NCBI GenBank assembly: GCA_030427445.1
Contig: JAUIBQ010000009.1
Coordinates: 1-36,915 of the forward strand
DNA: 36,915 bases
Source of the DNA: a bacterium
GTDB lineage: Bacteria; Patescibacteriota; Saccharimonadia; Saccharimonadales; SZUA-47
Direction: 5' to 3'
Made by a program: the position numbers and the translations under genes. Positions 8,064 through 35,150 of this stretch are shown piece by piece. Positions within the stretch are counted from its first letter, which is position 1; each line of letters opens with the position of its first letter. The notes below the pieces were generated by a model that was not told where the DNA came from, did no database searches, and was given only the letters and a program-made list of their open reading frames with translations.

Positions 8064-8067
8064 TCAG

Positions 8068-8766
8068 GTGCCGCAGGCTATTTCAACTGAAGCGATAATA
8101 CTTCGTCGCGTGAACTACGGCGAGGCGGATCGAGTTGTGACGTTCATTACTGCTGCTCATGGGCAAGTTAGTGGCTACGCCAAGGGTGTACGGAAACAAA
8201 AAAGTAAGCTGGCGGGAGGCTTGGAGCTTTGTATGCTGAGCGAGATTAGTTACTTACCGAGTAAGCGGGCAGATGGGTTAGCCACGATTACTTCTACTCG
8301 TATGAAAGAGTTTTATGACGAAGTAGTGAAGGATTATGATGTATTGCAGGATGTATTCTCGCTCCTTAAAATCGTCGATAAAGCTTCAGAGTTTGAAGAG
8401 TCACCGCTGTTATTTACGCTTAGCATCGAGCTTTTACGAGGACTTAACGCAAATCCAGCGTCTACAGCAGTGGAGTTGTGGTTTTTGATTCGGCTTTCAT
8501 CTCTGCTAGGCCAAGGTTTTCAGCTACAGTCTCCACTAAACGCTGAAAAGTTTAGTAATGAAGCGATGTACCAGTTTGATTTTGAGCAAATGGGTTTCTT
8601 GGAATCAGATAACGGCAATGTTCTGCCAAAAGATATAAAACTCCTGAAAGTTATGTCAGTCGCAGAAACTCCGAAAAATCTAGGAAACATCGTCGGTATA
8701 GACGAATCGTTGAATAGGGTAGAGCACGTCTTAAAATACCTGAAGCAACAGCTCGAACAGCTATAA
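8068..8766 (+). CDS. recO: DNA repair protein RecO
   Basis: 232 residues from the GTG at 8068, which has AGAGG 9 nt upstream and sits just after the receiver stop. The N-terminal OB-fold reads STEAIILRRVNYGEADRVVTFIT, then GVRKQKSKLAGGLEL, both typical of RecO, which anneals strands and loads RecA with RecR. The helical C-terminal domain lacks the four-cysteine zinc site found in some homologues. Earlier in-frame ATGs would overlap the receiver gene by about 100 bp and add non-family residues, so I reject them. Confidence 0.88.
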   Translation: MPQAISTEAIILRRVNYGEADRVVTFITAAHGQVSGYAKGVRKQKSKLAGGLELCMLSEISYLPSKRADGLATITSTRMKEFYDEVVKDYDVLQDVFSLLKIVDKASEFEESPLLFTLSIELLRGLNANPASTAVELWFLIRLSSLLGQGFQLQSPLNAEKFSNEAMYQFDFEQMGFLESDNGNVLPKDIKLLKVMSVAETPKNLGNIVGIDESLNRVEHVLKYLKQQLEQL

Positions 8767-33508: not shown

Positions 33509-34372
33509 TTATCGGAGCTCCCAGTTGCCCTGTGGTGTCTGGGAGATTCTACTATCAATCTCAAGCATAGTAAGTACTTCTTGCAGCTCTCCTAAATCCA
33601 TACCTGTTTCACTCATCAGCTCATCTGTGAGGCCGAAGCCTAAGGCTATTTTTTGTATAATCAACGTTTCTTCTGGCGAGCTTGATGAAAGGTCTAGGGA
33701 TTGTTGCTTTTTCGTATCTACCCCTAGGTCTTTCAGAAGTTCGGCTGGGTCGGTGAGTAATTTCGCACCTTGTTGGATTAGCCAGTTACAGCCAGCACTG
33801 TTAGGCTGAGTGACGTTCCCTGGTACTGCATAGATAGGGATACCCATTTCTCTAGCGTGCCTTGTAGTGTTTAGTGTGCCAGATTGGGCTGCCGCTTCAG
33901 TGACAACGACTGCATCGCTGAGTGCCGCTACGATGCGGTTACGGATAAGAAAATCTACTTTCTTCGGTTTTGGGTTTGATTCGTATTCACTCACTAACGC
34001 TCCCCAGCTCTGCTCGATTCGCTCAGCAAGTAATCGATTAGTGGCTGGGTATATGTGTTCCACATCGCTTGGCAACACTGCAATGCATACTCCTTTTGCT
34101 GTCAATGTCGCTTCATGAGCGATGGCGTCTACACCTAGTGCTAAGCCACTCACTACCACTACCCCTGCTCTACTTAACTCACTTGCCAGCTTCTCCGTCT
34201 GAGCTCGCCCGTAAGGTGAGGGCTTACGGGTACCGACAATCGCAACCCAAGGCTTACCAAGTAGTTCACCGATATTTAGCCCTTTATAGTAGAGTTGTTG
34301 CAGCGGAGCATCAATCTTCTCGAGTCGTTTTACTTTCTTTTGGATACTAGGGGTAAGCGTAAGCTTATTCAT
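33509..34372 (-). CDS. dprA: DNA processing protein DprA
   Basis: 287 residues with a Rossmann-like core: WVAIVGTRKPSPYGR, VVSGLALGVDAIAHEATL, YPATNRLLAERI and FLIRNRIVAALSDAVVVTEA. A C-terminal winged helix follows (about 225-287). DprA protects incoming single-stranded DNA and loads RecA during natural transformation; competence is common in these lineages. AAAGG sits 7 nt before the ATG. It diverges from the RNA locus at 34416 and precedes topA by 94 bp. Confidence 0.94.
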   Translation of the reverse strand: MNKLTLTPSIQKKVKRLEKIDAPLQQLYYKGLNIGELLGKPWVAIVGTRKPSPYGRAQTEKLASELSRAGVVVVSGLALGVDAIAHEATLTAKGVCIAVLPSDVEHIYPATNRLLAERIEQSWGALVSEYESNPKPKKVDFLIRNRIVAALSDAVVVTEAAAQSGTLNTTRHAREMGIPIYAVPGNVTQPNSAGCNWLIQQGAKLLTDPAELLKDLGVDTKKQQSLDLSSSSPEETLIIQKIALGFGLTDELMSETGMDLGELQEVLTMLEIDSRISQTPQGNWELR

Positions 34373-34415: not shown

Positions 34416-34444
34416 TTGACTTAATGACATAATTTTGCTATAAT
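34416..34444 (+). promoter_or_regulatory. Consensus promoter of the structured RNA locus
   Basis: TTGACT (34416-34421), 17 nt, TATAAT (34439-34444) with an extended TGC. Transcription should begin near 34451, right at the first hairpin. No ORF with a usable start follows for 700 bp. Confidence 0.85.
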
Positions 34445-34450
34445 GTCTAC

Positions 34451-34640
34451 TTGTAAGCATCGTAATGGATGTTCTTACGTACCTTTACCCCTTATTTTAC
34501 CACTACTCTCTCTCGAGATGAGTAGAGTAAAATGATATGTTTTAGAGCTGTGAATATGCCCTGTAGCTCGTTGTTACCCTCCACGAGTTGCAGACAAAAG
34601 CACATTTACTGCCTAGATAGAGGTACCAAGCTCTAAAACA
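34451..34640 (+). ncRNA. Structured RNA of unknown family
   Basis: Three helices fill the segment after the promoter. Hairpin 1: GTAAG-CATC with GATG-TT-CTTAC (34453-34478). Hairpin 2: ATTTTAC-CA-CTACTC with GAGTAG-A-GTAAAAT (34494-34533). Domain 3: an 11-bp closing helix GTTTTAGAGCT (34539-34549)/AGCTCTAAAAC (34629-34639) enclosing an 11-bp stem CTGTAGCTCGT (34561-34571)/ACGAGTTGCAG (34583-34593) with an 11-nt loop. No signature of RNase P RNA, tmRNA or SRP RNA is visible. No U-run follows, so it may be processed from a longer transcript that also carries the downstream 6S-like RNA. Confidence 0.6.
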
Positions 34641-34781
34641 CTCACTGGTCACGACCTAATCTTTTGAATTAATTTGTGGCAGATGCAAGCTAGATTGTGT
34701 TTGAACGAGCGAGCAGTAGAAATTACTACTGTAAGCGAGTGAAAAGATAATATAGCGTAGCAAATGTAGCAAATTAAACTA
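34641..34781 (+). other. Linker between the two structured RNAs
   Basis: No gene. One hairpin, CAGTAG (34714-34719)/CTACTG (34726-34731), is seen. No good second promoter for the downstream RNA could be found. Confidence 0.5.
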
Positions 34782-35018
34782 AAGAGCTAGGTGGTGGATA
34801 GTGAATCCCCTTTAACCCCGCATCCCCCTCTCGTTTTGATTAGAGTTTTGGGCAGTGATGACGGATCAACCTTATGGATGGGCTTTCGTATGACTTTTGC
34901 GAGAACATATGAGAGATAAGCCTTCAAGGTGGGTTGAAGGGTGTAATTTTGGGATGTCCTTTGAGAGACGTCCCTAGATATGAGCTTACAGCGGTGCCCA
35001 CCCCCTCTGTAAGCTCTT
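34782..35018 (+). ncRNA. ssrS: Probable 6S RNA
   Basis: The ends pair in a long-range closing helix: AAGAGCT (34782-34788) with AGCTCTT (35012-35018), and GGTGG (34790-34794) with CCACC (34998-35002). The 5' strand carries GTGAATCCCCTTTAACC, close to the conserved GUCCCCUGAGCC region of 6S RNA. The 3' half has CCTTCAA/TTGAAGG as in the E. coli 3' arm, and ends TTACAGCGGTGCCCACC, which resembles the 6S 3' signature as I recall it. An extra hairpin GGGATGTC/GACGTCCC lies in the 3' arm. 6S RNA mimics an open promoter and binds sigma-70 RNA polymerase. A covariance search would settle it. Confidence 0.5.
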
Positions 35019-35028
35019 ATTTATTTTT
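34982..35028 (+). terminator. Rho-independent terminator of the RNA locus
   Basis: GAGCTTACAG (34982-34991) and CTGTAAGCTC (35007-35016) form a perfect 10-bp stem with a 15-nt loop, followed by TTATTTATTTTT. The stem uses the same bases as the 6S-like closing helix, so the two are mutually exclusive. Confidence 0.85.
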
Positions 35029-35049
35029 GGACATCTTAAGCGGAGCCCA

Positions 35050-35150
35050 GCTACGTTCCGTAGCCTCAGAACAACATCTTAGAAAACACGTTTCCAAGAG
35101 TTGGTTCTCTTGCAGAAATCCACCGGATTTCCTCACCCTCTAGTGGCTTT
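35050..35150 (+). other. Three further hairpins before the orphan gene
   Basis: Perfect 6-bp hairpins: GCTACG/CGTAGC (35050-35064), CAAGAG/CTCTTG (35095-35112) and AAATCC/GGATTT (35116-35130). A short CTTTTAT stretch follows near 35147. They may be part of the upstream RNA if the terminator is leaky, or a separate small RNA. Confidence 0.4.

Follow-up and report, generated by a model that had tools for sequence, protein, structure and literature searches.

In a stretch of 36,915 nucleotides from a Saccharimonadales genome (the window), I find what is likely to be a gene standing on its own, constitutively transcribed into a structured noncoding RNA. This RNA measures some 260-580 nt across its homologues and falls outside Rfam 15. 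I would give this reading a probability of roughly 0.78, the transcript itself being unobserved. It rests on the combination of a promoter, a terminator, a single copy, a fixed locus, a conserved fold and near-invariant C-rich loops. The start of the gene is inferred from the promoter and its end from the terminator, and the features of the locus are as follows:

33509-34372, minus strand: dprA, the divergent neighbour, with topA beyond it.
34416-34444, plus strand: promoter, with -35 TTGACT (34416-34421), a spacer of 17 bp, -10 TATAAT (34439-34444) and an extended -10 TG, TGCTATAAT.
34451-35028, plus strand: whole RNA gene, inferred.
34453-34478, plus strand: H1, 5' hairpin GUAAG...CUUAC, strands 34453-34461 and 34468-34478.
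34480-34491, plus strand: M1, unpaired C-rich link, consensus ACCUUAUACCCC, mean unpaired probability 0.74.
34492-34535, plus strand: H2, hairpin predicted in the fold of the window, strands 34492-34500 and 34527-34535.
34538-34640, plus strand: P3 domain, with a closing stem of 12 bp (34538-34549 with 34629-34640) that is 100% complementary.
34561-34593, plus strand: P3a, arm inside P3, with a stem of 11 bp (34561-34571 with 34583-34593).
34572-34582, plus strand: M2, the loop of P3a, UGUUACCCUCC, near-invariant and C-rich.
34642-34804, plus strand: long hairpin, an insert in the family to which the window belongs, missing from most other families.
34808-34817, plus strand: 5' strand of P4, CCCUUUAACC, which pairs with 34932-34941 in the minimum-energy fold; the motif in relatives is ACUAACCCCUUUAAC.
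34928-34933, plus strand: GGUGGG, possible pseudoknot partner of CCCACC in the terminator loop.
34932-34941, plus strand: 3' strand of P4, GGUUGAAGGG, in long-range pairing with 34808-34817.
34951-34974, plus strand: optional hairpin in the interval from P4 to the terminator, from the predicted fold and missing in some relatives.
34982-35016, plus strand: intrinsic terminator hairpin, stem 34982-34991 with 35007-35016.
34992-35006, plus strand: M5, the terminator loop, CGGUGCCCACCCCCU, with core UGCCCACCC.
35017-35028, plus strand: U-rich tail of the terminator, the T-rich 12 bases after the stem.

The gene spans approximately 580 nt in the window, and the RNAs of 110 aligned homologues are 264-508 nt long, with a median of 385. 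Of these homologues, 107 carry a TTGAC[A/T/G] promoter, the spacer is exactly 17 bp in 101 and the extended -10 TG occurs in 106, while 105 have a U-rich tail, counted as at least 6 T within 12 bases past the terminator stem. Promoter and tail together are the marks of an expressed gene, an inference made from sequence alone and without transcript data.

The 5' part of the gene (34449-34680) has a fold energy of -69.1 kcal/mol (z = -5.9), which was equalled by none of 200 shuffles. The longer interval 34449-35070 reaches -224.6 kcal/mol with z = -10.7, albeit against 20 shuffles only, and for this reason the feature is considered to continue well beyond 34640. Folding the transcript on its own, without any alignment, gives a minimum-energy structure that contains P3, P3a, P4 and the terminator stem, and in which the C-rich stretches M1, M2 and M5 are mostly open. 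The original prediction had described a near-ideal promoter leading into three stacked helices, with pairing too dense to be expected by chance. The promoter held, the three helices were all found (H1, H2 and P3), and the shuffles bear out the judgement on chance. The third helix was said to have an 11-bp closing stem around a second 11-bp stem; the enclosed stem, P3a, is confirmed, and the closing stem measures 12 bp. The proposed extent of 34416-34640 was too short, as it covers only the 5' part of a gene that ends near 35028.

Conservation in relatives together with covarying pairs had been named as the test of this prediction, and both are observed. When 28 relatives are aligned with MAFFT, 99.7% of the P3 cells are paired, with double changes in 6 of its 11 pairs, and P3a shows two-sided changes in 4 of 6 pairs; the signal is lost when the partner strand is slid by 1-3 columns. 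In the terminator stem 10 of 11 pairs covary. A tree test on 110 sequences, which compares double changes on the same branch with random placement, gave 38 such changes for P3 (null maximum 19), 23 for P3a (21), 9 for P4 (4) and 80 for the terminator stem (32), and no support for H2. Under a stricter, R-scape-like test of column pairs with a tree null, only pairs of the terminator reached E<0.05 (6 pairs); I judge this test too strict for stems that change slowly. The P3, P3a and P4 strands of the 110-sequence set were partly picked by their pairing, and the tree-test counts are somewhat inflated. The segments of the MAFFT alignment were picked by pairing and consensus as well, and with its slid controls this alignment offsets the inflation only in part. 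The terminator stem was anchored solely by its loop core UGCCCACCC, but copies that pair weakly were filtered out.

Individual replacements illustrate the same trend. P4 occurs in the compensatory variants GCCUUUAAC/GUUGAAGGC and CCCUUUAAG/CUUGAAGGG, and the family f36 has a P4 of different sequence with its pairing retained. In the family f35, which contributes the most genomes to the sample, P3 has an unrelated sequence at the identical position, e.g. ACAUGCAAUG/CAUUGCAUGU. Homologues beyond the reach of BLAST thus retain the helices through compensatory changes. H1 recurs among relatives with different loop sequences. By comparison, the unpaired C-rich loops UGUUACCCUCC on P3a and UGCCCACCC on the terminator are near-invariant, the former on a stem that varies, and ACCUUAUACCCC after H1 hardly changes while the stems do; this M1 link recurs in most homologues inspected, including those of f35. 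The motif GGUGGG is present in 104 of 110 RNAs where resampling predicts 6.4. A pseudoknot between it and CCCACC of the terminator loop is possible, but no covariation of the two was seen in the 110 RNAs. Several RNAs of f35 and related families (loci L209, L210, L221, L224, L225, L235 and L237-L239) have an extra conserved arm within P4, GGCGGACCUCC...GAGGUGGGUCACGCU, which contains GGUGGG.

A DNA search matched 40 of the 61 nearest genomes. Two covariance models were built, R1 for the P3 domain and R2 for the 3' domain, and the union of all searches, assembled by hand, comes to 56 of 61 genomes and, within a single order, the Saccharimonadales, to 34 of 37 families. No match was obtained in the remaining five of the 61 (G003, G033, G035, G043 and G050), two of which are less than 90% complete. 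Each positive genome has exactly one R2 match, including all 20 genomes tested from f35, a family that BLAST mostly missed. In phylum-wide samples the matches were confined to Saccharimonadales genomes, with none in other classes, nor in three further orders or families within the same class. A scan for the terminator loop over 84,980 named species matched at least 119 contigs or stretches, nearly all of them titled Candidatus Saccharibacteria or similar; the matches in Akkermansia, Dyadobacter, Elusimicrobia and Halioglobus look like chance, as none has the P3 domain. The gene is likely to be ancestral to the Saccharimonadales and almost universal in that order. A viral origin was considered and rejected, for phage records gave no match, and among the 19 IMG/VR contigs that show the loop pattern the P3 domain is found in just one. 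This contig, L204, has the RNA together with its promoter and terminator at 8064-8353; either the contig is bacterial and misclassified, or the copy is a carried one.

The neighbourhood is equally stable. The RNA gene is divergent from dprA and topA in nearly all inspected loci, and where dprA is absent topA adjoins; in genus g57 topA lies on the opposite side of the RNA gene. In 58 of 89 loci the downstream gene is convergent, and from its protein sequence, without a search, I take it to be peptidyl-tRNA hydrolase (pth). Of the 89 loci, 39 have their first downstream open reading frame on the strand of the RNA, and no co-directional gene is common to more than four. A second structured element is observed right downstream, at 35040-35145 of the window, consisting of a UUGAAAACAAGUUUUCAA hairpin, a GAAAnUCCACnGGAnUUUC hairpin and UCACCCUCU...GGCUCUUUAUAUUU. 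It recurs in the relatives L002, L003, L005, L009 and L014, and is found a second time in the same genome (contig C36 of G000; L296 12355-12419).

No known family accounts for the RNA. At the gathering threshold no Rfam 15 family matches the window or any of 20 homologous loci. A lax threshold gives three sub-threshold matches in the window (E 0.3-1.1), only one of which lies on the strand of the RNA within the gene, a 22-nt snoRNA-like match at 34851-34872. RNase P RNA (RF00010) has no match at the locus and its true gene at C39:30710-31069 (217.6 bits); tmRNA (RF00023) likewise is absent from the locus, which has neither a tRNA-like domain nor a model match, and matches above the cut-off at C40:1930-2302. 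For 6S RNA (RF00013) there was no match at the locus, in the homologous loci or anywhere in the genome, and for SRP RNA (RF00169) none in this genome or in 36 genomes of the phylum. Most control genomes did match in the SRP searches, and a full-length SRP54-domain protein (Ffh/FtsY) was not found in 29 Patescibacteria genomes, which gave just short, weak matches. The idea that the RNA replaces the missing SRP RNA was dropped, since the SRP54 protein is missing too and the RNA has a narrower range than the absence of SRP RNA. The P3 strand 34538-34549 contains GUUUUAGAGCU, which resembles the first letters of a type II CRISPR repeat. A crRNA or tracrRNA of that type was rejected; the likeness is a coincidence, as other families (f35) replace the P3 sequence.

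The locus does not appear to code for protein. The transcript has no plus-strand open reading frame of 60 or more amino acids except one starting with TTG (34934-35143), which begins in the 3' strand of P4 and crosses the terminator, and no open reading frame is conserved among the homologues. An RNA with a small open reading frame or a dual function was rejected, because in 62 frames that looked homologous the likeness came from conserved RNA motifs such as GCUCUAAAACAAACUAACCCCUUUAAC that are read in different frames; coding by a small frame is unlikely. The literature searched holds no description of the RNA, most subscription journals and preprints being outside its coverage. I consider the family new in that it lies outside Rfam 15, while the broad kind, that of large structured RNAs in bacteria, is already known, and its function, if found, could turn out to be a familiar one. 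The original prediction had seen no signature of RNase P RNA, tmRNA, SRP RNA or a riboswitch, which is upheld by Rfam and the neighbourhood, and a strong Rfam match that might have overturned it is lacking. It had also suggested a lineage-specific regulatory RNA; the restriction to one order confirms the former adjective, whereas the latter remains unproven.

How the RNA might work can only be inferred. Transcription by RNA polymerase and the main sigma factor would start near 34451 and stop near 35028, P4 would join both ends of the variable domain, and the stems would form a scaffold that offers the C-rich single strands M1, M2 and M5 to a conserved partner in trans. The trans mode itself is inferred from the architecture. 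This partner, so far unidentified, would probably not be a multitude of mRNAs but either a protein or a second stable RNA, as the loops hardly change while the surrounding stems do; between protein and stable RNA I see no reason to prefer either. A partial action of the constitutive transcript in cis, through the divergent dprA promoter, remains possible. Since the RNA is near-universal and its position fixed, it could just as plausibly serve in housekeeping as in regulation. A bolder reading, for which the odds are slightly unfavourable, is that of a large housekeeping RNA of a new class, assembled into a ribonucleoprotein specific to the order. If true, it would mean an important task without known counterpart in an epibiotic lineage that has no detectable 6S and SRP RNAs.

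Alternatively, the RNA could act as an antisense regulator in the manner of RNAIII, with C-rich loops containing CCUCC that pair with the Shine-Dalgarno sites of many mRNAs and block their translation. M1, M2 and M5 are indeed C-rich and mostly unpaired, and M2 keeps CCUCC even in variants such as UACCUCC. However, complements of the loops are not enriched at 613 gene starts of this genome (about 92% of its bases): GGAGGG was found 2 times (controls 1 and 1) and GGGUGG once (controls 0 and 1), compared with 31 times (controls 3 and 1) for true Shine-Dalgarno hexamers such as AAGGAG. Complements of M1, M2 and M5 in the genome also reach no greater length than those of reversed controls. This explanation is therefore unlikely, and the lack of enrichment at ribosome-binding sites favours a scaffold with a conserved loop partner. 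At the same 613 gene starts the most enriched hexamers 2-20 nt before the start codon are TATAAT and TATACT, which may point to many leaderless or nearly leaderless transcripts.

A stand-in for 6S RNA, which would bind and sequester the RNA polymerase holoenzyme, would fit a single-copy, near-universal RNA with a strong promoter in a genome without detected 6S RNA, but in place of a rod around a central bubble the fold has separate domains closed by P3 and P4, and RF00013 is unmatched; I regard it as improbable. Less likely still, and largely refuted, is a leader that controls an adjacent gene in cis, as a riboswitch or attenuator would. It could draw on the terminator hairpin at the end, as in attenuators, and on the loci in which a same-strand frame comes first downstream, yet the conserved downstream gene is convergent, dprA and topA are divergent, and a co-directional gene is shared by at most 4 loci. 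Finally, a conserved promoter and terminator could enclose nothing but chance folding and no functional RNA, as transcription is unobserved and the middle is partly variable. This too is very unlikely: P3, P3a and P4 covary above the tree-based null, the loops are near-invariant, and the z-scores hold for both the 5' part and the whole.

The standalone RNA gene thus remains the preferred reading, and it implies that nearly every Saccharibacteria genome examined keeps an RNA of unknown job at one locus. Saccharibacteria genomes are about 1 Mb or less and have shed much metabolism. Large structured RNAs found throughout an order are rare, and RNase P RNA, tmRNA, 6S RNA and OLE opened new biology. 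Natural transformation has been described for cultured Saccharibacteria (PMC10633639), so that the role of the RNA is directly testable. With the covariance models the gene can also serve as a marker, one that Rfam-based annotation pipelines miss.

Among known systems, RNase P RNA and tmRNA are similar in length and in their housekeeping-like conservation, but both are encoded elsewhere in the same genome. The RNA resembles 6S RNA in being near-universal and single-copy and in having its own promoter, whereas it is longer, has several domains and shows no match in sequence or structure. RNAIII of Staphylococcus aureus is a large RNA of many hairpins whose C-rich loops include that of the terminator hairpin, and the likeness extends to each of these traits; the Saccharibacteria RNA differs in lacking a conserved open reading frame and an enrichment of loop complements at ribosome-binding sites, and its host lineage is unrelated. 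OLE, GOLLD, ROOL, HEARO and raiA are classes of large structured bacterial RNAs whose role is unknown or partly known. They too are hundreds of nucleotides long and lineage-restricted, with several conserved helices and conserved loops. In contrast to these classes, the RNA described here stays below every Rfam gathering score in the window and the 20 homologous loci, and it is a single-copy gene, near-universal in one order and held in fixed synteny.
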